The translations under genes and the position numbers were made by a program. A DNA stretch of 11,475 bases from the NCBI GenBank assembly GCA_025350745.1, contig JANXXG010000184.1, positions 1 through 11,475 on the forward strand, written 5' to 3'. Source of the stretch: Chloroflexota bacterium (GTDB taxonomy: Bacteria; Chloroflexota; Limnocylindria; P2-11E). Below the pieces are notes generated by a model. The model had not been told where the DNA came from. It did not search any database and saw nothing but the letters and a program-made list of their open reading frames with translations. Shown one piece after another: positions 1-8,762 of the stretch. Position 1 is the first letter of the stretch. Every line of letters starts with the position of its first letter.

Positions 1-82
1 CCCGCAGCAGGATGAGCACGGTGACGTAGACGACGAAAGTGCGAAGGATGATCTCGTACCACGCGGTCGTCATCTCGAACAT
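1..82 (-). CDS. DUF421 (YetF-like) membrane protein, N-terminal fragment
   Basis: Partial gene running off the left edge; only the first 27 codons are visible. The reading starts MFEMTTAWYEIILRTF and continues as a hydrophobic helix ending LILLR. An Ile-Leu-Arg-Thr-Phe motif followed by a long hydrophobic helix is how DUF421/YetF/YcaP-type membrane proteins usually begin (family knowledge; too short to be certain). Two in-frame ATGs are possible, at 82 and at 73. The first lies 2 bases after the cytochrome stop (85-87), with a GGGGAG Shine-Dalgarno-like run inside the cytochrome gene about 11 bases upstream. It would be the last visible gene of the minus-strand copper/redox operon. DUF421 proteins have no firmly established biochemical role, so its link to copper here rests on position only. 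Confidence 0.6.
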   Translation of the reverse strand, partial: MFEMTTAWYEIILRTFVVYVTVLILLR

Positions 83-84
83 CT

Positions 85-645
85 CTACGGCTGCTCCCCG
101 CGCGCGAGTGCCTGCACGTACCGGATGATGCTCCAACGATCCTCATCCGAGAGCTTCGGCTTTCCCGTGGACGCATCACTGTCCTGCCACGCCGGCATCG
201 CAGTGCCGGGGACGCCGCTCGAGATCCAGTAGAAGACCTCGCCCGGCGCGTGCTGCGGGACGTGCAGCTGCAGGTTCACCGGCCGCGGGACGAGCGTGAA
301 CGCCGCCGGCCCGTCTCCCTTCGCGACCGCGCCGTGGCAGACGGCGCAGTTGACCTGATAGACCGCCTTCCCGCGAGCGACGGTCGCTGGCGTGTCCGGC
401 GTCGGGTTCGAGACGAAGCGCGCCGTCAGAGGCACCGGGGGGGTGGGGATGTTGGGCGCGATCGTGTAGCCGAGGATGAGCGCTACCGCCGCGAGCGCAG
501 CGAGGATCCCGGCGGAGACCGCGAACCGGCGGTACTCGTCCTTGCGGCGTACGCGCACGAGCGCGAGCACCGCGAACAGGATGACGCCGACCGCGAGCGC
601 GATCGCGATCTGCTCGAGCCCCTGGCGGCTGATGGGGATCGTCAT
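85..645 (-). CDS. Membrane-anchored class I cytochrome c
   Basis: This 186-aa protein has two hydrophobic helices (about residues 12-30 and 41-61) followed by a proline-rich linker and a single cytochrome c domain. The haem-binding motif is CAVCH (Cys100, Cys103, His104), followed by a glycine/aspartate segment (GAVAKGDGP). The likely distal ligand is Met150 in GTAMPAW, and a C-terminal helix (DRWSIIRYVQAL) is typical of class I monohaem cytochromes such as the ActE-like group. The haem domain should face outside the cytoplasm and carry one electron. Its ATG overlaps the stop of the 56-aa gene as ATGA (642-645), so it is probably translated by coupling. It sits downstream of CopC-CopD, which suggests an electron-transfer step linked to copper handling, or delivery to or from a copper oxidase; that link is inferred. 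No oxidase gene is visible in the window. Confidence 0.88.
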   Translation of the reverse strand: MTIPISRQGLEQIAIALAVGVILFAVLALVRVRRKDEYRRFAVSAGILAALAAVALILGYTIAPNIPTPPVPLTARFVSNPTPDTPATVARGKAVYQVNCAVCHGAVAKGDGPAAFTLVPRPVNLQLHVPQHAPGEVFYWISSGVPGTAMPAWQDSDASTGKPKLSDEDRWSIIRYVQALARGEQP

Positions 646-812
646 GGCTTCTTGTCTAGCGCAGGCGCTTCAGCCTTCGCGGCCCGCTTCTTCTTCTCTT
701 TGCGCGATGACCACCAGTAGAGGCCGATGAAGATCGAGAGTGGAAGGACGAGCTCGATCAGGAACTCGTCGACGAACGTTCCGTGCAGGACGAGCAGCTC
801 CATCCCGGTCAT
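642..812 (-). CDS. 56-aa single-pass membrane protein (small ORF)
   Basis: A short gene between CopC-CopD and the cytochrome. It encodes 56 aa: a short N-terminus (MTGMELLVLHGTFVDE), one hydrophobic helix (about residues 17-34, ending GLYWW), then a strongly basic tail (SSRKEKKKRAAK, ending DKKP). The positive-inside rule places the Lys/Arg tail in the cytoplasm. It is supported mainly by architecture: its ATG (812-810) overlaps the CopC-CopD stop as ATGA, and its TGA (644-642) overlaps the cytochrome ATG as ATGA. Without it there would be an unexplained gap of about 160 bases in a cluster that otherwise has almost none. No Shine-Dalgarno is visible, consistent with translational coupling. 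The small, one-helix, basic-tail form recalls accessory subunits such as CcoQ, but I see no diagnostic motif. Function unknown. Confidence 0.8.
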   Translation of the reverse strand: MTGMELLVLHGTFVDEFLIELVLPLSIFIGLYWWSSRKEKKKRAAKAEAPALDKKP

Positions 813-2692
813 GGTGACACGACGAACGTGTACTCCGCGATGTTGGCCCCGTCACCGATCGTGAGCTTCATCGCCCAGCTGCCCTTCCCAAGACCGGCGA
901 TGTCGATGCGATAGCGGCCGGCGCCAAGCTCGCTCGCGACGAGGGTCTCGGGCTGGGCGGGTTGCCCGGTCTTCGCGGACAGCGAGCCCGTGATCTTCAC
1001 GCCCGTCGCCGGATCCCCGGCCTTGTTGAGCGCGACCACGTTGAGCGCGATCGGCGCCCCCTCCACCGGGAGGCTCGGCTCGGGGAACACGACGAGATTG
1101 AATGCGCCCGCGGTCAGCGCCATCGCGGTCGCGCCCTGCCCGGCCTGTTGCGAGATGGGCACCACGAATAGCGCGCGCGCGTCGTCCCTGCCCGCGAGCC
1201 GGACGATCGTCTCGACCTTCCAGGTGCCGTACATCGCCGTCGGGCTGCCGGTAGCGACGTACTCGCCGGGTGCCCGCTCCTCGGCGACGAGCTCGGACTG
1301 ACCCATGTCGTGCTCGACCATGGTGAAGCGGAGCACGACCTTCTCCGCTCCGGTCACCGGCGCCAGGCCGCGCTGCACCCGGACCACGAATCGGTTGCGA
1401 CCGGGGATGTTCGTCGGGACCACCAGCTCCACGCGCAGGCCGCCGACATGCTGCGTCTGATCGAATGCGGCGCCCGACGCCTGGGCCGGCGGCGCGAGCG
1501 CGGTGAGGATCCCCGCGGCGACGAAGACCGCCGCGAGCAGCGCGGATTCGAGCACCGTCCCGCGGATGAGCGCGCGTCGGTCCCCGCGGGGCCCATATCG
1601 CAGGAGGTTGAACGCCGCGAGCGACAGCACTGCGGCGAGCAACGCGATCTTGGCCAGCAGCGCGATCCCGTAGGGCGTCTCGACGAGGTCCTGGAGAAGC
1701 ACGAGCCGGTCGAGGGCCTGGAGCGTCCCCGTCGTCACGAGCAGGGCCACCGAGGTCAGCGCCAGCAGCGAGAAACGCCAGGTCGTGCGCCGCAGTGCAT
1801 CCGGCGACTCGTCGCGAGACCGGAGGCGGATCCAGAGGAACGCGACGAGGCCGCCGGTCCACGCCGACACCGAGAGGACGTGGACCAGATCGAGGGCCAT
1901 GTCCTTGCTGTCGCCCAGCGCCGTGGCGTGCGACACGAGGGTCGCGGTGAGCGCTCCGATGATCCCCGCGGCGAGCACGAGGTATCGACGGGTCCGTGCG
2001 GGGACCGCTCCGGCCAGCGCCGCCCCGACCCCGAGGCCCGCCAGGAGGCGCACGCTGAGGAGCAGCTCCAGGCGCGGTGGCAACCGATCCCCCTGCGCAA
2101 GCACCATCCCGGCTGAGCCGACCGCGATCAGGCCCCCCGCGACGAAAAGCAGCTGACGCTCCCGGCGCCGCTCAGCCGGATCCGCGGCGGCATGCACGAC
2201 GAGACCGAACAGCGCGGTCCCGAGTGCGAGCGCGATGCCGGCGTACGACAGCGCGCGCGCCGCGACCTCGAGCGGCGTCGGCGGGGCCGCGGCGTTCGGC
2301 ACATCGGGCAGCGAGGGCAGCGGACCGGTCCCGACGACGAAGGCGAAGCTTCCCTTCGTCTCGTGACCATCCACAGCTGAGACCGCGGTCCACGCGACGA
2401 GATAGCCCCCGTCGCCGATGGCCTTGAGGCCGACCTTGATCCCGTTCGGCTCGTCGGAGAGCGTCGTCGCGCCCTGGTCCCACCGTTGTCCCTTGTCGTC
2501 GAGCACCTGGATCTGGCTGCCCTTTGGATCCGGGGGCTCGCTGAAGGAGATCCGGACCTCCGCGGGTGGCCGGACCAGCCGCGCGTCGGACGCCGGATTC
2601 GAGCGCACGTAGTTCGCGTGCGCGCTGACGGGCACCGCACCGGCCACCGCGCCCGCGAGCGCGAGCGCGGTGGCCAGGAGGAGTCGCCTCAA
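809..2692 (-). CDS. CopC-CopD-YtkA-like copper protein (triple fusion)
   Basis: A 627-aa envelope protein. Residues 1-24 form a signal peptide ending VSA, so the mature chain would begin with His25 (HANYVRSNPASD), as in CopC. Residues 25-122 are CopC-like, with the Cu(II) ligand motif DGH (Asp108, His110) that partners the N-terminal His. Residues about 144-400 are a polytopic CopD domain with several helices and His255 and His271 (LVHVLSVSAWTGG). Residues about 411-515 resemble the YtkA/FixH-like beta domain and contain MVEHDMGQSEL and MYGTWKVE. Residues 530-627 look like a second beta-sandwich domain. CopC/CopD proteins bind periplasmic copper and are associated with copper uptake. The start is TTG at 2692-2690, overlapping the upstream TGA as TTGA; no ATG lies near the signal peptide. 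YcnJ of Bacillus has a similar CopC-CopD-C-terminal domain layout. Confidence 0.93.
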   Translation of the reverse strand: MRRLLLATALALAGAVAGAVPVSAHANYVRSNPASDARLVRPPAEVRISFSEPPDPKGSQIQVLDDKGQRWDQGATTLSDEPNGIKVGLKAIGDGGYLVAWTAVSAVDGHETKGSFAFVVGTGPLPSLPDVPNAAAPPTPLEVAARALSYAGIALALGTALFGLVVHAAADPAERRRERQLLFVAGGLIAVGSAGMVLAQGDRLPPRLELLLSVRLLAGLGVGAALAGAVPARTRRYLVLAAGIIGALTATLVSHATALGDSKDMALDLVHVLSVSAWTGGLVAFLWIRLRSRDESPDALRRTTWRFSLLALTSVALLVTTGTLQALDRLVLLQDLVETPYGIALLAKIALLAAVLSLAAFNLLRYGPRGDRRALIRGTVLESALLAAVFVAAGILTALAPPAQASGAAFDQTQHVGGLRVELVVPTNIPGRNRFVVRVQRGLAPVTGAEKVVLRFTMVEHDMGQSELVAEERAPGEYVATGSPTAMYGTWKVETIVRLAGRDDARALFVVPISQQAGQGATAMALTAGAFNLVVFPEPSLPVEGAPIALNVVALNKAGDPATGVKITGSLSAKTGQPAQPETLVASELGAGRYRIDIAGLGKGSWAMKLTIGDGANIAEYTFVVSP

Positions 2693-3273
2693 CAGCGGCG
2701 GGCCATGGCAAGCGACACGACGGAGACACCGAGTGCCGCCGCGGCAAGCGCGATCGCCAGGGTCAGCTTGCCGTTCGCGTCGTCGAGATTCGTCGCGAGG
2801 TCGCTGTTGGACGGGACGCTGTTCGGGAACTGCAATGGCGCGAGGTCCTCGATGCCGCCGAACCGGCCGGGGCCGGATTCGAACTTCTCATCGATCACGG
2901 TCGTGTTGACTGTGCCGGTCAGGTGGAAGGTGTATTCCCCGACCCTGGTCGGTAGGACCTGGCCCTGGTACTTGCCGGGCAGACCGAAGCGCGTAGCGAT
3001 CGTCAGTGGCTTGACCGTCGATCTACCGCCGGCGATGAGCTCGGCCTTGAGCGTCTTCTCGAGACCTTCGACGGGCTTGGTCGTTGCCGTCTCGGTCACC
3101 GTGAGATCGAGCGCGTTGAGCTGGTTGAGGTACGCCGGCTCGACGATCCAGCCGACGACGAACGTGTAGGGACCGACCGTGCGGCGCTCGTGCGCCGCGG
3201 CTGGACTCGAGAAGATGCCGAGTGACGCCACGACCATGACGATGGCCGCGGCGACCGAAAGGAGCCGCGTCAT
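2689..3273 (-). CDS. Exported, C-terminally anchored protein; putative copper protein
   Basis: A 194-aa protein with a signal peptide (residues 1-27, ending SSPAAA), an extracytoplasmic domain and a C-terminal hydrophobic helix (about residues 170-190) followed by ARRC. Predicted cleavage after AAA would expose His28 as the new N-terminus (HERRTVGPYTFVVGWIVEPAY), resembling the copper-binding N-terminus of CopC. The GPYTFVVGW...EPAY and VGEYTFHLTG segments suggest a beta-rich domain. The ATG at 3273 is preferred over a GTG at 3285 because a GGAGG Shine-Dalgarno lies 5 bases before it (about 3279-3283). The GTG start would place that site inside the gene. Its stop overlaps the CopC-CopD start by 4 bases. 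I know of similar unnamed proteins beside CopC genes but cannot assign a named family. A role in copper binding or delivery is inferred. Confidence 0.85.
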   Translation of the reverse strand: MTRLLSVAAAIVMVVASLGIFSSPAAAHERRTVGPYTFVVGWIVEPAYLNQLNALDLTVTETATTKPVEGLEKTLKAELIAGGRSTVKPLTIATRFGLPGKYQGQVLPTRVGEYTFHLTGTVNTTVIDEKFESGPGRFGGIEDLAPLQFPNSVPSNSDLATNLDDANGKLTLAIALAAAALGVSVVSLAMARRC

Positions 3274-3278
3274 AAGAA

Positions 3279-3283
3279 CCTCC
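3279..3283 (-). promoter_or_regulatory. Strong ribosome-binding site, decides the start of the 194-aa gene
   Basis: On the minus strand GGAGG is followed by TTCTT and then ATG at 3273. This 5-base spacing is ideal and makes the ATG, not the upstream GTG at 3285, the likely start. It is the only strong Shine-Dalgarno visible in this minus-strand operon. It is the place where ribosomes could load independently of coupling. Confidence 0.75.
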
Positions 3284-3303
3284 ACGCCCTTTGAGATATC
3301 GAC

Positions 3304-3693
3304 TTACGCGGACACGAAGAGGTACGTACGCGGCGGGCCCAGCGGAGCACCGTGCCGCCACTGCGATGTGCCCAGCGCCACCGTCTTCAACCGGGCCACC
3401 AGGCGACGCGCGGGGCAGGGAAGCACCGCGACGGCGACGACCAGCGTCGCGAGTACGAGGGCACCGAGCTGGACCTGGCTGGGGGTCTCGAGGCTCCAGC
3501 CGGGCTCGCTCGCACGCATGGGCGCGGCTCGGAGCTGGAGCAGGAACAGCGGGTAGCGGTACACCGCAAGGAGGTGATCGTGGGATAGCGGCGTACCCGG
3601 GGGATCGACGTGCGGCGGTAGCGCGAGGCCTGAGGAGGCAAGAGCGCAGCTGCCGGCCGCGACGGCGAACACGAGCGCACGCAGCCAGCGCAT
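3304..3693 (-). CDS. Small exported membrane protein of unknown function (129 aa)
   Basis: A 129-aa protein. The N-terminus MRWLRALVFAVAAGSCALAS looks like a signal peptide or first helix. A short His-containing region follows (LPPHVDPPGTPLSHDHLL, residues 25-42), then a YRYPLFLLQLRA segment, a hydrophobic helix (about 74-92) ending LPCPARR, and a basic C-terminus ending PPRTYLFVSA. The start ATG (3693-3691) shares one base with the fur stop (TGATG), so the two genes are probably translationally coupled. The next gene begins 30 bases downstream. The same open frame extends much further upstream antisense to the transporter genes, but the coupled ATG and signal sequence mark the real start. 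His28, His38 and His40 could bind metal, which is speculation. No family recognised. Confidence 0.72.
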   Translation of the reverse strand: MRWLRALVFAVAAGSCALASSGLALPPHVDPPGTPLSHDHLLAVYRYPLFLLQLRAAPMRASEPGWSLETPSQVQLGALVLATLVVAVAVLPCPARRLVARLKTVALGTSQWRHGAPLGPPRTYLFVSA

Positions 3694-4115
3694 CACGATG
3701 AGGGTACGACGCGGCATTGCCGGCAGATGCCGACGATCGCGGAGTGGGCGAGGTCCGCGTCGAAGCCGTGCTCGTCGTGCAGCCGCTTCGCCATGGAGGC
3801 GAGCGCGATCGGGCGGACCTCCGTCTCGCCGCCGCAGACCCGGCAGACGAGGTGCCCGTGCGGGTGGCTGTCCGCGCGGTGCCATCGCGTGATCCGGTCG
3901 TCCAGATGCGTGTGGATCACTTCGCCAAGCTCCTCGAGCGCCTGGAGATTGCGGTACACGGTCGACGCGTCGATCTGCGGGTGCTTCGCCCGGACCCGCT
4001 TCGCGATCTCCTCCGCCGTGACGTGGTGTCGCGCCTGGCGGACCGCGTCGAGCACGAGGCGTCGCTGCACCGTCATGCGCTTGCCGCTGGAGCGCAGCGC
4101 GTCTTGCAGGCTCAT
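3693..4115 (-). CDS. Fur-family metal-dependent transcriptional regulator (first paralogue)
   Basis: A 140-aa Fur superfamily protein with the usual two-domain form. The winged helix is at residues about 1-80, with recognition helix IDASTVYRNLQALEELG at 49-65. A C-terminal dimerisation and metal domain follows. Zinc-type cysteine pairs are Cys91/Cys94 (HLVCRVCGG) and Cys131/Cys134 (GICRQC). A His cluster (HPHGH, 84-88), plus His68, His70, His113, His116 and His124, supplies other metal ligands. The ATG at 4115 is preferred; a TTG at 4133 in frame would add 6 residues. Family members sense Fe, Zn, Ni or Mn; which metal applies here cannot be read from the sequence. It is divergent to a NiCoT nickel/cobalt transporter and heads the copper/redox operon, so nickel (Nur-like) or zinc sensing are reasonable options. 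It probably autoregulates through the octamers around its start. Confidence 0.9.
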   Translation of the reverse strand: MSLQDALRSSGKRMTVQRRLVLDAVRQARHHVTAEEIAKRVRAKHPQIDASTVYRNLQALEELGEVIHTHLDDRITRWHRADSHPHGHLVCRVCGGETEVRPIALASMAKRLHDEHGFDADLAHSAIVGICRQCRVVPSS

Positions 4116-4179
4116 ATCGCAAGCCTGCGGCAATCGCGAACGTATCGCAACAGGACGCTATCGCCACAAGTTGCGATAG
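4115..4179. promoter_or_regulatory. Divergent operator region with TATCGCAA/TTGCGATA octamers
   Basis: The octamer TATCGCAA occurs at 4115-4122 (touching the fur start codon) and 4143-4150. A variant TATCGCCA lies at 4159-4166, the inverse TTGCGATA at 4171-4178, and a weaker copy (AATCGCGA) at 4132-4139. The last clear pair forms a 22-bp imperfect palindrome at 4158-4179, with perfect 7-base arms CTATCGC and GCGATAG. The position between fur and a divergent metal transporter is typical of Fur-family operators. The TTGC/GCAA ends recall the Nur (nickel) box of Streptomyces, TTGC-n-GCAA, but the spacing differs. Promoter elements are not clear: TTGTGG and GATACG, 17 bases apart on the minus strand, are a weak candidate. 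Binding is inferred. Confidence 0.65.
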
Positions 4180-4191
4180 GCTCGCCATCGA

Positions 4192-5097
4192 ATGGATCTC
4201 GCGTTGGTCGGACTGCTCGCGGGGATGGTCGTCCTCGGCTTCCGGCACGGCTTCGACTGGGATCACATCGCGGCGATCACGGACATCACGAGCACCACCA
4301 CCGCCTCGCACGCGGCCGAGGACGTTCCAGCGATCGCGCCGATGCCTCGCCATGCTCACGATGAGGGACCGGCAGAGCACGGCCACTCGCACGCCGATGC
4401 GAGCCCCATCCACGTGCTCTCGGACTCGCGGTTCGCGCACGAACAACGTCACGCCATCGGGCTTGCCAGCCTCTACGCCTTCGGGCACGCGAGTGTCGTG
4501 ATGGTCCTCGGCATCCTCGCTCTGGCGGTCGGGGCCATCCTGCCCGCGTGGGTCGACCCGATCCTCGAGCGCGTCGTGGGTGTCACGCTCGTGCTCCTTG
4601 GGATCTGGGTGGTCATCTCTGTCGTCCAGTACGTTCGCGGCGAAGGCGAGTTCCGGATGCGCAGCCGTTGGATGCTCGTGTTCGACGGTGTGCGCTACGG
4701 CTGGGATCGCCTCCAGGGCCGGATCCACGGGCACCACCACGAGCCCATCGCCCATGCGTCGCAGTACGGACCGAAGACCGCGTTCGGGGTGGGGATGATC
4801 CACGGCGTCGGAGCGGAGACCGGATCGCAGGCGCTCCTCCTTGCCGGCATCGCGGGCGTGACCGGCGCCCAGGGCGTCGTCATCCTGGTCGCGTTCATCG
4901 TCGGCCTGCTGCTCTCCAACACGCTCGTCGCGGTCGTCAGCGCGACGGGATTCATCGGGGCCCAGCGTCTGCGGACCGTGTATGTGGTGGTCGGGGCGTT
5001 CGCCGGGCTCTCGAGTCTGGTCATTGGGCTGTTCTTCATCGCCGGCCTCGGCAACGCGCTGCCCGATATCCAGGAGCTCTTGTTCGGCGCGCGGTAG
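4192..5097 (+). CDS. NiCoT-family nickel/cobalt transporter
   Basis: A 301-aa polytopic membrane protein. Helix I carries the signature RHGFDWDHIAAITD, fitting the NiCoT HX4DH motif (His19, Asp24, His25) that is essential for Ni/Co recognition in HoxN/NixA. Further helix motifs are LYAFGHASVV (His99) and GMIHGVGAETGSQ (His204, Glu209). A long hydrophilic loop (residues about 35-87) is rich in His (HAHDEGPAEHGHSHADASPIH) and a second His run (HGHHHE, 179-184) follows later, probable metal-collecting regions. Family proteins import Ni(II) or Co(II) using the ion gradient. The ATG at 4192 lies only 12 bases after the operator palindrome and has no good Shine-Dalgarno, so the mRNA may have a very short leader. 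It is the first gene of a three-gene plus-strand run. Substrate (Ni or Co) is undetermined. Confidence 0.88.
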   Translation: MDLALVGLLAGMVVLGFRHGFDWDHIAAITDITSTTTASHAAEDVPAIAPMPRHAHDEGPAEHGHSHADASPIHVLSDSRFAHEQRHAIGLASLYAFGHASVVMVLGILALAVGAILPAWVDPILERVVGVTLVLLGIWVVISVVQYVRGEGEFRMRSRWMLVFDGVRYGWDRLQGRIHGHHHEPIAHASQYGPKTAFGVGMIHGVGAETGSQALLLAGIAGVTGAQGVVILVAFIVGLLLSNTLVAVVSATGFIGAQRLRTVYVVVGAFAGLSSLVIGLFFIAGLGNALPDIQELLFGAR

Positions 5098-5116: not shown

Positions 5117-5956
5117 GTGGTGCTCGAGATCGCCGGCTTCATCGCGCTGGGCCTCGCGATCGGGACCATCGGGACGCTTATCGGAGCGGGTGGGGGCTTC
5201 ATCCTCCTTCCGGTCCTCGCACTCCTGAACCCGCTCGAGCCGACCGGCACGCTCACCGCCACGTCGCTCGCCGTGGTCGCGGCGAACGCGACGAGCGGCA
5301 CGATCGCGTACCGCCGGCAAGGCCGCATCGACGTGCGCTCCGGAATCTGGTTCGCGCTGGCCGCGCTCCCGGGCAGCATCGCCGGCGTGTTGCTCGCCCG
5401 GACGATCCCCCGCGGACCGTTCGATATCGCATTCGCTCTGGTGCTCCTGGCACTCGCGCTGGTCGTGGTGCGCGTCCGACCGATCATGCAGCCGGCGGCG
5501 CCGGTCGGGCACGTCGCTCATCCATGGGGCCGGGTGTCGCGTGAGCTGACCGACAGCGAGGGGCAGATCCACCGGTACACGGTCGAGTTCCCTCTCGGCG
5601 TGGCCACGTCGTTCGTGATCGGCTTCGCGTCCAGCCTCCTCGGCATCGGCGGCGGCTTCATCCACGTGCCGGCGCTCATCGCGCTGCTCGGCTTCCCGGT
5701 GCACATCGCGACCGCTACCTCGCACTTCGTGCTCGCGATCACGACGAGCATCGGCACGGTGACCCACATCCTCGCCGGGGACCTCAACACGACGTGGCCG
5801 CGAACGGTCGCGATCGCCGCCGGAGCGATCTGCGGCGCGCGGATCGGAGCCTCACTCAGCCGCCGCGTCCGCGGGGTACTGATCATGCGGCTGCTCGCGC
5901 TCGCCCTCGTGATCGTCGCGTTGCGGCTCGCGGCCCAAGGGCTGCTCGGGGTATGA
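5117..5956 (+). CDS. TauE/SafE-family (sulfite exporter-like) permease
   Basis: A 279-aa membrane protein with the internal duplication of the TauE/SafE family: GTLIGAGGGFILLPVLALL (residues 19-37) in the first half and SSLLGIGGGFIHVPALIALL (172-191) in the second, separated by a hydrophilic loop (ELTDSEGQIHRYTVEF). Each half has about four helices. Members export small anions or organosulfur compounds such as sulfite, sulfoacetate or taurine products, but many are uncharacterised. No ATG lies near the first helix. GTG at 5117 or the adjacent GTG at 5120 are the only sensible starts, 19 or 22 bases after the transporter stop, without a clear Shine-Dalgarno. The frame stays open further upstream inside the NiCoT gene, but that part has no TauE character. 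Its stop overlaps the next start as ATGA. Co-transcription with a Ni/Co transporter suggests an ion-homeostasis role; substrate unknown. Confidence 0.85.
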   Translation: MVLEIAGFIALGLAIGTIGTLIGAGGGFILLPVLALLNPLEPTGTLTATSLAVVAANATSGTIAYRRQGRIDVRSGIWFALAALPGSIAGVLLARTIPRGPFDIAFALVLLALALVVVRVRPIMQPAAPVGHVAHPWGRVSRELTDSEGQIHRYTVEFPLGVATSFVIGFASSLLGIGGGFIHVPALIALLGFPVHIATATSHFVLAITTSIGTVTHILAGDLNTTWPRTVAIAAGAICGARIGASLSRRVRGVLIMRLLALALVIVALRLAAQGLLGV

Positions 5957-7059
5957 GGATGCGCGTCAGCGGCCTCCTCGTCCTCCTCGCGGTCCTCGCT
6001 CTTCCCGCGTGCGCCGACGCGAACACCGGACAGGTGTCGAGCGTCATCGATGCGCATGTGGTCCGGGTCGTGACGCAGGGAAATCGGGTCGTCGGTCAGC
6101 CGGGCCTACCGGGTCAGCCGTTCCAGACGCTCGAGGTCCAGCTTGACGGTGGCCTGTACCGCGGCGATCACGTGACGCTGGAGTGGGGCGGCCAGAACGC
6201 GCTCAACGCGAACGGCCTGTTGGCAGCCGGTGATCGGGTGCTCGTGTCGCAGCGCCGCGGTGACGGCGACGCGCGGCAGTATGCGATCGAGGAGGTCGTG
6301 CGGCTGCCCTCGCTCGCGCCGTTCGCGGTCATCCTCATCGTCGCCCTCATTGCGGTCGCGCGATGGCGGGGGCTGGCGTCGCTCGCCGGCCTCGCCGGCA
6401 GCATCGCGGTGTTCCTCTTCGCCATCGTGCCTGCCGTGCGACGCGGCGACGACCCGCTCGTCGCGACGCTCGCTGGAGCGGTCGCGGTGCTCGGCGTCAC
6501 CGTCTTCGTCGTGCATGGACTCAATCGCAAGAGCCTGGCCGCGCTCATCGGCACTGCCACATGCCTCTTCATCGTGGTCGTGCTCGCTGCGGTGACCCTC
6601 GCGGTCGCCCACATCACCGGCCTTGGATCCGAGGAATCCGTGTTCCTCGCCATCGGCTCCGGTGGCCGGATCGACCTGCATCGGCTCGTGCTCGCGGGGA
6701 TCATCGTCGGATCGCTCGGGGCGCTCGTCGATATGGGGATCGGGCAGGCGTCGGCGACGTTCGAGCTCGCCGCCGCGCACGATGAGATGCGCGGTCCCCG
6801 GCTCTACGCGAGCGCGCTCAACGTCGGTCGGGACCACATTGGATCGCTCATCAACACGCTTGCGCTCGCGTACTTCGGTGGATCGATGCCGCTCATCGTG
6901 CTGCTGTCGCTCGGCGCGGTCCCGCTCTCAGTTGCGCTGAACAGCGAGACGATCGTCATCTCAGTCTTGTCCGTGCTAGTCGCGAGCATCGGGCTGGTGC
7001 TCTGCGTACCGATCACGACGGCGGTGGCGGTCGTACTGGTCGGCCGCAAGCCTGCCTAG
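5953..7059 (+). CDS. YibE/F-family multipass membrane protein
   Basis: A 368-aa protein. The N-terminus (RVSGLLVLLAVLALPAC) is a signal sequence with a lipobox-like LPAC (Cys20). An extracytoplasmic beta-rich domain of about 100 residues follows (22-120), then seven or eight membrane helices (from about 122 to 362). The hallmark segment LGALVDMGIGQASATFELAA (residues 255-274) and GRDHIGSLINTLALAYFGG (292-310) match the YibE/F family (PF07907) as I know it. The family is widespread in Firmicutes and Actinobacteria but has no proven function; a transport role is usually assumed. The start ATG overlaps the TauE stop (ATGA, 5953-5956), so it is coupled. An in-frame open stretch upstream (from 5794) is out-of-frame TauE coding sequence. 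The gene ends in a TAG shared with the convergent gene. Confidence 0.85.
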   Translation: MRMRVSGLLVLLAVLALPACADANTGQVSSVIDAHVVRVVTQGNRVVGQPGLPGQPFQTLEVQLDGGLYRGDHVTLEWGGQNALNANGLLAAGDRVLVSQRRGDGDARQYAIEEVVRLPSLAPFAVILIVALIAVARWRGLASLAGLAGSIAVFLFAIVPAVRRGDDPLVATLAGAVAVLGVTVFVVHGLNRKSLAALIGTATCLFIVVVLAAVTLAVAHITGLGSEESVFLAIGSGGRIDLHRLVLAGIIVGSLGALVDMGIGQASATFELAAAHDEMRGPRLYASALNVGRDHIGSLINTLALAYFGGSMPLIVLLSLGAVPLSVALNSETIVISVLSVLVASIGLVLCVPITTAVAVVLVGRKPA

Positions 7060-7556
7060 CGAAGCTCCAGCGTCGCGCCCACCCTCGCGGTCGTGGTGGC
7101 CCCGCCGTCGGTAATTCGGAATTCGAGCACCAGCGAGTAGGCGTCCGCGGGTACCGGCGCCCCCTTGAGGTCCCTCGCGTCCCACGCGACGACCGTCGAC
7201 CCGCGACCCGCCGACACCGTCACCGGCGTCGCGGCAAGCTCCCGAACGAGCACCTCTGCAGGCAGGCCGCGCTCGTTGATGCCGCTGGCCATGATCCGTG
7301 CGGTGACCGGGCCGCTGATCGTGCCTCGGGTCACCACGACCGCGACCGGTATCACCAGAGCCGCCCCGATCGGGTACGCCGCCGCGACCGTCACCTCGAC
7401 CCGGCCGTTCGGAAGGCTGGTCGGTATCACGAAGCTGATCGGGGCGGTGCTCGCACGTGTGGGGACCGGCGCTGCCACGCATGTCGCTCCCACCAGGAGG
7501 AGCAGGACCGGCGCGAGCCGCGAGGCTACCGAGCGCGCTTTCGGCAGCTGCCGCAC
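7056..7556 (-). CDS. Small secreted protein with an Ig/FlgD-like C-terminus
   Basis: About 166 aa. The N-terminus is basic (MRQLPKARSVASR), followed by a hydrophobic core LAPVLLLLVGATCVAA and a small-residue region that looks like a signal peptide. The mature part is beta-rich, with a stretch VVAWDARDLKGAPVPADAYS (residues 122-141) similar to the W-D-G-x-D-x-x-G-x-x-V-P-A-G-x-Y signature of FlgD-type Ig-like domains. No ATG exists near the signal peptide; GTG at 7556 is the best start and overlaps the upstream regulator gene by 31 bases. A later start is possible. It is the second gene of the Zur-like regulator transcript, so it may be a metal-related envelope protein, but I recognise no metal motif. 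The ligand and function are unknown. The frame's upstream extension is antisense to the ZIP gene. Confidence 0.68.
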   Translation of the reverse strand: MRQLPKARSVASRLAPVLLLLVGATCVAAPVPTRASTAPISFVIPTSLPNGRVEVTVAAAYPIGAALVIPVAVVVTRGTISGPVTARIMASGINERGLPAEVLVRELAATPVTVSAGRGSTVVAWDARDLKGAPVPADAYSLVLEFRITDGGATTTARVGATLELR

Positions 7557-7990
7557 AGACCGTAGAAGTCGAGCGCGGCGTGGTCCACCTGGAAGTCGTG
7601 CGTGCGCCCGACGGATGAAAGGAGCGGAGCGACCACGGTCTCGTCGAGGTCCTCGACCCGCTGGCACCGGGTGCAGACCAGATGATGGTGGTGCGTCGCG
7701 TCGCAGGCGACGTAGGCCGAGACGTGGCCGTCGCGCTCGAACCGGCTCGCCATCCCGTCCTGGACCTGCGCCTCGAGCGCGCGGTAGACCGTCGCCAGGC
7801 CAAGGGTCGGATGGCCTGCGTTGATCCGCTCGTGGAGCTCCTGCGCGGAGAGCGCGCGCCGGGCGGCCGCGAGAGCCTCCGCAACGATGACGCGTTGGGG
7901 CGTCGATCGGCGTCCCCGGGAGACCATCCGTCGCTGGATCGCGGCCGGGCGCCTGGAACGAGCGTGCGCGGTCGACGCCGTGTTTGACAC
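7526..7990 (-). CDS. Fur-family regulator, probably Zur-like (second paralogue)
   Basis: A 154-aa Fur superfamily regulator. The N-terminal tail (residues 1-21) is basic and variable, followed by the winged helix with recognition helix GLATVYRALEAQVQDG (64-79). The metal domain has THHHHLVCTRC (His100-His103, Cys106, Cys109) and HDFQVDHAALDFYGLCGSC (His131, His137, Cys146, Cys149), the pattern of Zur/Fur proteins with a structural zinc site. It is divergent to a ZIP-family metal importer, and a perfect palindrome lies between them. Zinc sensing is therefore the best guess; iron or manganese cannot be excluded. The GTG at 7990 opens the full frame; an ATG at 7927 (MVSRGRRS) would give 133 aa and still keep the whole DNA-binding domain. 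The predicted promoter puts the mRNA start almost at the GTG, so the gene is either leaderless or starts at 7927. Confidence 0.88.
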   Translation of the reverse strand: MSNTASTAHARSRRPAAIQRRMVSRGRRSTPQRVIVAEALAAARRALSAQELHERINAGHPTLGLATVYRALEAQVQDGMASRFERDGHVSAYVACDATHHHHLVCTRCQRVEDLDETVVAPLLSSVGRTHDFQVDHAALDFYGLCGSCRKRAR

Positions 7991-7998
7991 TCGGTCCC

Positions 7999-8027
7999 AG
8001 TATCCCTAGGTTGAGAACAATTCTCAA
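7999..8027 (-). promoter_or_regulatory. Probable promoter of the Zur-like regulator gene
   Basis: On the minus strand TTGAGA (8027-8022, five of six with the -35 consensus) is followed by a 17-base spacer and GATACT (8004-7999, four of six with the -10 consensus). The -35 element lies inside the palindrome at 8011-8027, so bound repressor would block it. This points to autoregulation. Transcription would begin near 7992, about at the GTG start. Confidence 0.5.
8011..8027. promoter_or_regulatory. Fur/Zur-type operator, perfect 7-3-7 inverted repeat
   Basis: The sequence TTGAGAACAATTCTCAA has perfect 7-base arms around a 3-base centre. It can also be read as a 7-1-7 Fur-type box (TGAGAAC-A-ATTCTCA) close to the known TGATAATnATTATCA pattern. 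It sits midway between the divergent starts of the regulator (7990) and the ZIP gene (8040), so one dimer pair could control both. The sequence is AT-rich against a very GC-rich background, which supports function. The binding protein is inferred to be the neighbouring Fur-family regulator. Confidence 0.75.
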
Positions 8028-8028
8028 T

Positions 8029-8034
8029 AGGGGG
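8029..8034 (+). promoter_or_regulatory. Ribosome-binding site of the ZIP gene
   Basis: AGGGGG lies 5 bases before the ATG at 8040 (spacer TCCGC) and immediately after the operator palindrome. It fixes the ATG as the start. Confidence 0.65.
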
Positions 8035-8039
8035 TCCGC

Positions 8040-8762
8040 ATGACCGTCTTTGCGGTCGTCGCCGCGACGTTCCTGTCGACGCTCGCGGGGGGCATCGTCG
8101 CGCTCCGCAGCACGAAACAGCTGGGCTTCGTCATCGCCCTCGGCGCCGGGGTGCGTATCGGTGCGGCGTTCTTCGACCTTGCTCCCGAATCGGCCAAAGC
8201 GCTCGGATCGATCGATGACGCGATGCTCTTCGCGGGCGTCGGCTTCCTCGCCTTCTACCTGTTGGAGCGCATCACGCTCCTGCACGTCGGGCACGAGGCG
8301 GGACATCCGGTGGAGCGGCACGAGCATGTCGGCGCGATCGGCGCGGGCGGGATGTCGGTCCACAGCTTCCTCGACGGCGTCGCGGTCGGCGCGTCGTTCC
8401 ACGCGAGCGTCGAGCTCGGCATCCTCGTCGCGGTCGTCGTGATCCTCCACGACTTCTCGGACGGCATCGCGACCGTCAGCGTGCTTCTGGCCAACGGCGC
8501 CACACGCGCGACGGCGTTCCGTTGGCTCCTCATCGACGCAGCGGCCCCTGTGATCGGGGCGATCGTGGCCCTCTTCCTGACGATCGAGGGTCCGGTCCTC
8601 GGAGCGATCCTCGGCTCGTTCGTCGGCTTCTTCCTGTACGTGGGTGCGGCGGAGCTTCTGCCCGAGGCCCACCGCAAGGGCCGGGGCGACCTCGTCATGG
8701 TCGGCACCGTCGCCGGCGCGGCCTTCATCTTCGCCGTGACGCGCATCGTCGGGGGCGTGTAG
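8040..8762 (+). CDS. ZIP-family divalent metal transporter
   Basis: A 240-aa membrane protein with the eight-helix ZIP pattern and a short His-rich cytoplasmic loop (HVGHEAGHPVERHEH, residues 82-96). Helix IV carries VHSFLDGVAVGASF (His108, Asp112) and helix V carries LHDFSDGIATV (His137, Asp138, Asp141), corresponding to the binuclear metal site of ZIP transporters. Other family signatures are FDLAPES (helix II) and AAELLPEAH (Glu205, helix VI). ZIP proteins bring Zn(II), Fe(II) or Mn(II) into the cytoplasm. The usual Glu of the helix IV and V motifs is Asp here, a substitution that could alter metal choice. A good Shine-Dalgarno precedes the ATG. Control by the divergent Zur-like protein through the operator at 8011-8027 is likely, making zinc the favoured substrate. 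The next gene follows after 17 bases. Confidence 0.9.
   Translation: MTVFAVVAATFLSTLAGGIVALRSTKQLGFVIALGAGVRIGAAFFDLAPESAKALGSIDDAMLFAGVGFLAFYLLERITLLHVGHEAGHPVERHEHVGAIGAGGMSVHSFLDGVAVGASFHASVELGILVAVVVILHDFSDGIATVSVLLANGATRATAFRWLLIDAAAPVIGAIVALFLTIEGPVLGAILGSFVGFFLYVGAAELLPEAHRKGRGDLVMVGTVAGAAFIFAVTRIVGGV

Follow-up and report, generated by a model that had tools for sequence, protein, structure and literature searches.

A Nur-like regulator heads a conserved CopC-CopD gene cluster, divergent from a NicO-type gene, in one order of Chloroflexota

The window, by which we mean the whole stretch of DNA analysed here, is a complete contig of 11,475 bases from a draft genome of a Chloroflexota bacterium (2.0 Mb, 80.8% complete). 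On its minus strand, a gene for a Fur-family regulator that looks like the nickel sensor Nur precedes genes for a copper-type uptake protein with fused CopC, CopD and YtkA domains (CopCD), an exported protein of 194 amino acids (aa) referred to as p194, two small membrane proteins and a cytochrome c. A gene for a NicO-type nickel/cobalt permease-like protein diverges from the regulator gene, 76 bases apart. On balance, this is probably a nickel-responsive metal-acquisition locus which captured a copper module of the YcnI/YcnJ type, with mainly Cu(II) as the cargo of its CopC arm, although we propose this with considerable reserve. Conservation of the cluster, the predicted operator and the identity of the regulator are well supported by sequence comparisons; envelope metal acquisition by CopC-CopD and the His-led p194 is the likeliest function, and repression of the locus by nickel is what we infer from homology.

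Gene order and its conservation

Six complete minus-strand genes follow one another, in the order of transcription nur-like, 129-aa, 194-aa, CopCD, 56-aa and cytochrome c; their successive junctions measure -1, +30, -4, -4 and -4 nucleotides (nt). The features of the region (with E values) are:

4192..5097, plus strand: NicO-type nickel/cobalt permease-like gene, 301 aa, divergent from nur (TIGR00802 0.0014 and Pfam NicO 0.02, both below cut-off)
4158..4178, no strand: predicted palindromic operator CTATCGC-N6-TTGCGATA in the nur-nicO gap (exact in 17/28 family genomes)
3693..4115, minus strand: nur-like Fur-family regulator, 140 aa, operon head (Pfam FUR 4.3e-23; best PDB relative 3eyy, 1.6e-27)
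3304..3693, minus strand: small membrane protein, 129 aa (inspection shows two hydrophobic segments; neighbouring loci hold 17 relatives)
2689..3273, minus strand: p194, exported protein, 194 aa (mature N-terminal His28; C-terminal anchor by inspection)
809..2692, minus strand: CopC-CopD-YtkA fusion, 627 aa, YcnJ-like (Pfam CopC 6.2e-19, CopD 9.3e-12, YtkA 6.3e-11)
642..812, minus strand: 56-aa peptide with a single transmembrane segment (15 relatives in neighbouring loci)
85..645, minus strand: membrane-anchored mono-haem cytochrome c (Pfam Cytochrome_CBB3 6.3e-11)
2-82, minus strand: 'DUF421' stub of 27 codons at the contig edge (no Pfam match)

The original prediction described a minus-strand operon of seven genes. 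Six of them, tightly joined, stand; the seventh, 'DUF421', is an edge stub and not a constant member; L062 (phmmer 2e-07) has a similar start after its cytochrome, as does L076 by inspection. The range considered at that time ended at position 4115, and both the divergent NicO-type gene and the predicted operator lie beyond it.

Conservation was followed in a sample of 28 genomes of the family, 20 of which, the window's own included, carry a Nur ortholog. The full order Nur-129-194-CopCD-56-cytochrome c with divergent NicO was present in 14/20 of the latter, and in four more (L065, L072, L074, L079) the order agreed up to the contig end. NicO is divergent in 18/20. The gene order is thus conserved beyond chance. 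It was also kept in L082, from a second family of the order, and the overlapping 56-aa and cytochrome genes share 4 nt in 15 of 16 loci and 1 nt in the remaining one. Irregularities occur as well: among full-order loci, CopCD is split across two frames in L070, and long internal gaps are found in L069 (1775 nt) and L071 (513 nt); in L077, 611 nt lie between the 194-aa gene and CopCD, a figure dependent on the choice of start.

CopC scored above the cut-off once per genome in the 18 genomes with the nur-nicO pair, within the locus in 17 of them and on another contig in G301. In a midpoint-rooted tree of 47 of the 60 CopCD rows (one per locus, at least 500 aa), all 15 sufficiently long Nur/NicO-linked CopCD sequences, that of G285 included, fell on one side of a branch with 100/100 support, while CopCD of G171, from the 28-genome family, was placed elsewhere. 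The simplest account would be that Nur and NicO joined the copper module once, in the order's ancestor, and that losses followed.

The junction between nur and the 129-aa gene bears on another possibility, namely that Nur controls only itself and nicO, and that the copper genes are passengers transcribed from an internal promoter. This gap ranges from 35 to 94 nt in seven loci and reaches 513 nt in L071, i.e. in 8/17 measured loci it is wide enough to suit such an arrangement. In addition, p194-CopCD occurs without Nur in 38 loci (L084-L121), and is unrelated to nickel superoxide dismutase (NiSOD), which was found in 20/82 genomes with p194 vs 49/219 without it (p 0.76). However, the gap is as short as -4 to +5 nt in the other nine of 17 loci, and the order is maintained throughout the family as well as in L082, which makes mere passengers quite improbable.

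The regulator

The best PDB relative of the regulator, 3eyy (E 1.6e-27; the next chain reached 1.6e-14), is identified as Streptomyces Nur in a figure legend. Thus, the nearest solved relative is Nur and not Fur, Zur or PerR. The regulator's His31, 68, 70, 84, 86, 88 and 124 align to His33, 70, 72, 86, 88, 90 and 126 of 3eyy. We take H70, H72 and H126 of 3eyy to be the Ni-site of Nur, and H33, H86, H88 and H90 presumably form its M-site. Indeed, one site of four and one of three histidines are mentioned for Nur in a published review (PMC7055735). At the positions equivalent to H70, H72 and H126, His was found in 21/21, 21/21 and 19/19 sequences of the family and order that were readable there, that of the window included. 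All four M-site histidines are present in the window regulator; across the 21 sequences, the H86 position is His in only three, and the remaining aligned positions are kept wherever readable.

The protein therefore looks like a Nur-type nickel sensor, and because its divergent partner is of the nickel-permease type, the metal sensed is most likely nickel. A Fur-family head gene had been noted as unusual for copper genes; this holds, but the regulator is Nur-like by its match to 3eyy rather than an unspecified Fur. Had it drifted to sensing copper or another metal, the locus would be an ordinary copper-starvation operon under a relabelled regulator. Such a drift could be read from its place at the head of a copper-type operon, with CopCD, p194 and the cytochrome as its main co-transcribed neighbours, and from the variability of the M-site His86 position among orthologs. 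Against this stand the retention of all three presumed Ni-site histidines, the divergent NicO gene in 18/20 genomes and the company of NiSOD kept by strong Nur matches, and we consider copper sensing very improbable.

The window regulator and Streptomyces coelicolor Nur (3eyy) both belong to the Fur family, share the aligned Ni-site and most M-site histidines and a TTGC-containing operator, and are accompanied by a nickel transporter in genomes with NiSOD. They differ in their partners, which are nikABCDE and sodF in S. coelicolor and nicO and the CopC-CopD operon in the window, and in that no iron/manganese superoxide dismutase (Fe/Mn-SOD) to switch to was found in the 28 family genomes. Searches of the open-licence literature aimed at control of CopC-CopD by Nur brought up no paper that reports it in its title or at the beginning of its abstract; a paper on Frankia places nur by other genes (PMC4531530).

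A weak Fur hit near p194 in L107 was rejected as a Nur, its residues at the H70, H72 and H126 positions being E, R and D, and it was excluded from the ligand counts. A scan of contigs with a single Nur sequence gave only two remote Fur relatives. Near Nur-like genes of other groups, inspection alone, without a Pfam scan, revealed no clear nickel genes; in L152, a Nur-like gene of G185 adjoins a gene resembling, by inspection, a metal ABC-transporter binding protein.

The divergent gene and the predicted operator

The NicO-type protein contains an HGFDWDH motif and a His-rich loop, and HGFDWDH or HGIDWDH was present in 20/20 NicO-type rows, that of the window included. An HxxDxDH-type motif in the first helix is a signature of NicO/NiCoT permeases. 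Among 120 homologues listed, 20 bear a JGI name referring to nickel transport, 13 are hypothetical and the remainder unnamed. Motif, loop and these names are what the protein has in common with NicO/NiCoT permeases.

The gap between nur and nicO contains a palindrome whose family-wide form, CTATYGC-N6-TTGCGATA, was exact at this position in 17/28 family genomes. A search of the 28 genomes with at most one mismatch gave only three further hits outside the nur-nicO gap, all with one mismatch, and the backward pattern, used as a control, gave none. The arms are fixed and the N6 spacer varies between most genomes; in G320 the palindrome is degenerate. Further TATCGCAA half-sites occur at 4115-4122 and 4143-4150. 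In L082 the palindrome of the nur-nicO gap has another sequence, CTCCTGC-N8-GCAGGAG, with unchanged geometry. The predicted operator shares its TTGC core with the published Nur box, tTGCaa-N5-ttGCAA (PMC3919588).

Demand for nickel

NiSOD was detected in 22/28 family genomes, in 19 of the 20 with Nur vs three of the eight without it (hand count; Fisher 0.003). In the phylum sample (n=301), it was present in 13/17 genomes with a Nur match below 1e-33, a threshold of our choice, vs 56/284 others (Fisher 2e-6; these genomes are related, not independent). No Fe/Mn-SOD was found in the 28 family genomes by a search that was positive in 12/14 control genomes, and Cu/Zn-SOD occurred in 4/28, just one of them among the 20 with Nur. 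NiSOD was the sole superoxide dismutase detected, of the three families searched, in 18/20 Nur-bearing genomes. The short stretch ahead of three NiSOD genes of the family (L128-L130) shows no clear export signal, and in L128 a frame that looks peptidase-like on inspection comes after the gene; hence the enzyme is taken to be cytosolic, and nickel would have to be imported for it.

Other possible reasons for nickel control were considered and rejected. NiFe hydrogenase as a consumer of nickel gave a full match only in G320 of the 28 genomes, a strong fragment at a contig edge in G314 and three weak matches more, and urease gave solely partial matches of at most 26 bits. A switch from nickel to copper superoxide dismutase is not consistent with Cu/Zn-SOD in 1/20 Nur-bearing genomes, and a general link between p194 and NiSOD is not consistent with the counts given above.

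CopCD and p194

CopC, CopD and YtkA domains all lie in one chain (Pfam), and PDB relatives of the window protein include CopC and the CopC domain of YcnJ. H25, D108 and H110 of CopC and H255 and H271 of CopD were invariant in the readable rows (44 to 51 of 51), in Nur-linked and other CopCD alike.

A close known counterpart is ycnKJI of Bacillus subtilis. YcnI is reported to bind Cu(II) through its N-terminal His, a Glu and a Trp (PMC8424229) and to be able to exchange it with the CopC domain of YcnJ (PMC12362106), whose domain set equals that of the window CopCD and whose CopC and CopD histidines are required for function (PMC13344008). The fusion, the CopC His/Asp/His and the conserved CopD His are common to both systems, and p194 is, similarly to YcnI, anchored, with a mature N-terminal His and a Glu. 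However, p194 has neither a DUF1775 match nor an invariant Trp, the regulator is Nur-like instead of YcnK, and the window adds the 129-aa, 56-aa and cytochrome c genes and the divergent NicO.

No Pfam or NCBIfam family, DUF1775 included, matched p194, and no PDB match below E 0.4 was obtained with either sequence or profile. It has 1363 homologues, occurs in 82/301 Chloroflexota genomes and, outside the Nur/NicO group, stands beside CopCD in 33/38 loci (L084-L121; the exceptions are L096, L100, L113, L117 and L121). The alignment comprised 54 locus rows (L068, L103, L104 and L113 were left out of 58) and 21 of the 120 database proteins listed. H28, G41, E45 and P46 were invariant in these 75 rows; there was no conserved Trp among the invariant or nearly invariant columns. 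All 75 rows have A/G/S at -1 and A/G/S/V/T/I/L at -3 relative to the mature His, which supports the suggested export with an N-terminal His. p194 represents a new family of His-led anchored envelope proteins. No constant third partner was found outside the family when 30 of at least 100 neighbours were submitted to Pfam, no domain family appearing more than twice (DUF929 and DUF4399 two times each). In f14 genomes such as L103 and L104, p194 homologues match in two separated pieces, within open frames of up to 565 aa, so there seems to be a long insertion after residue ~64.

Because every tested copper-ligand position is kept, Cu(II) is likelier than Ni(II) as the cargo of the CopC arm, although this is the least certain step of our explanation. 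The contrary possibility is that this arm was retuned, so that Ni(II) is bound in the envelope by p194 and the CopC histidine brace and then delivered to NicO and/or CopD, the whole locus being a nickel importer. Some support comes from the common history of this CopCD lineage with Nur and NicO (its 15 rows share one side of the 100/100 branch), and from G285, in which NicO stays with the cluster despite the loss of Nur and NiSOD. For the anglerase Ang-1, whose N-terminal-His domain forms one chain with HupE/UreJ permeases, binding of Ni2+ (220 nM) besides Cu2+ (74 nM) is reported (PMC12537917). The anglerases Ang-1 and Ang-2 (PMC12537917) resemble the window in joining such an envelope domain to a membrane protein of the nickel-permease type, but p194 is unfused and stands next to CopCD, and NicO is encoded on the opposite strand. 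The identical copper-ligand positions in Nur-linked and other CopCD speak against nickel as cargo; moreover, YtkA and cytochrome c partners suit copper better, and the locus holds the sole CopC above cut-off in 17/18 nur-nicO genomes. We consider a nickel importer rather unlikely.

Two differences were seen in Nur-linked CopCD: a common M..EHDM cluster in the YtkA domain (residues 458-487), and replacement of an H..M pair which other CopCD often have in their last domain (595-598; the alignment is uncertain there). A shift of a metal site is a possible interpretation of these changes.

The small proteins and the cytochrome

The 129-aa protein has no Pfam or NCBIfam match; most of its relatives show a PH(V/I)DPPGTPxxHDH ectodomain and end in GPPR. 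Outside the Nur/NicO group, a frame with a PP tail directly precedes p194 in 19/37 loci vs 17/285 control genes (p 2.6e-11; the pattern was picked after inspection and the loci are related). The gap between Nur and p194 in L082 is occupied by a frame of this kind, in which AHEHGAGWSHEG comes after a signal-like start. From these frames, the 129-aa protein seems to be a long-standing part of the 194-CopCD cluster that evolves quickly. Relatives of the 56-aa peptide show the pattern HGxTGTWLDE...WSxRKEKKK. Neither small protein nor four positional analogues found a home in Pfam (best E 0.078, taken as chance). The cytochrome c is present in 15 other loci of the family and order, and in L087, from another Chloroflexota group, a cytochrome of lower similarity follows CopCD.

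Neighbouring genes

Downstream of nicO, genes for TauE/SafE and YibE/F membrane proteins lie at 5117-7059, a YibE/F relative being present in 11/22 loci L062-L083. An exported-looking 166-aa protein at 7056-7556, without a significant Pfam match and with relatives in 13/22 of the same loci, overlaps a second Fur-family gene (7526-7990). The latter is FurB/Zur-like by its best PDB match and divergent from a ZIP transporter gene (region 7526-8762); the gap between the two contains a perfect 7-3-7 palindrome, TTGAGAAcaaTTCTCAA, at 8011-8027.

Discussion

We propose the following mechanism. When nickel is plentiful, Ni-bound Nur would occupy the nur-nicO palindrome and repress transcription in both directions, as homology suggests. 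Shortage of nickel would release Nur, and NicO would import nickel for cytosolic NiSOD; judging from the gene order, the same release would turn on nur-129-194-CopCD-56-cytochrome c. The His-led p194 and the CopC domain would then bind a divalent metal on the outer side of the membrane and pass it to CopD, as described for YcnI and YcnJ, while the 129-aa protein, the YtkA domain, the 56-aa peptide and the cytochrome c may serve as docking or redox partners. If the cargo is Cu(II), copper uptake would belong to the nickel-starvation regulon. The original prediction of an envelope copper-acquisition module would thus be right as to envelope metal acquisition, the likeliest function, but the metal sensed is most likely nickel.

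Besides the wide nur-129 gaps and the variable H86 position, several observations weigh against this proposal. NicO does not adjoin nur in G075 and G091, two of the 20 genomes with Nur, and G075, which has NiSOD, lacks any CopC hit. Conversely, G285 possesses Cu/Zn-SOD, lacks Nur, the operator and NiSOD, and retains NicO-129-194-CopCD-56-cytochrome c, hence the cluster is not tied to NiSOD. The NicO-type protein, a divergent branch with respect to NicO/NiCoT permeases, remains below the thresholds of Pfam NicO (14.7 vs 27.7 bits) and NCBIfam TIGR00802 (18.1 vs 333). The GC-GC spacing of the predicted operator is 10 bp, that of the Nur box 11 (hand count). An exact operator was found solely at the nur-nicO gap in the 28 genomes, thus not at sodN. 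The link with NiSOD is one-sided, as a Nur match below 1e-33 is missing from 56/69 NiSOD genomes of the phylum sample, and many NiSOD users therefore either lack a Nur of this kind or possess a more remote one. Finally, the window's own genome, 80.8% complete, gave no NiSOD hit.

In the usual view of metal uptake systems, one sensor serves one metal. Here, a nickel-type sensor appears to stand atop a copper-type uptake operon, in one order of little-studied Chloroflexota in which NiSOD is mostly the sole detected superoxide dismutase. Either copper acquisition would be part of the response to nickel starvation, or CopC-CopD may be able to serve nickel; were the latter true, a classical copper histidine-brace route would serve nickel uptake feeding NiSOD in Chloroflexota. 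The locus also gives context to p194, an unnamed envelope family found in 82/301 Chloroflexota genomes.

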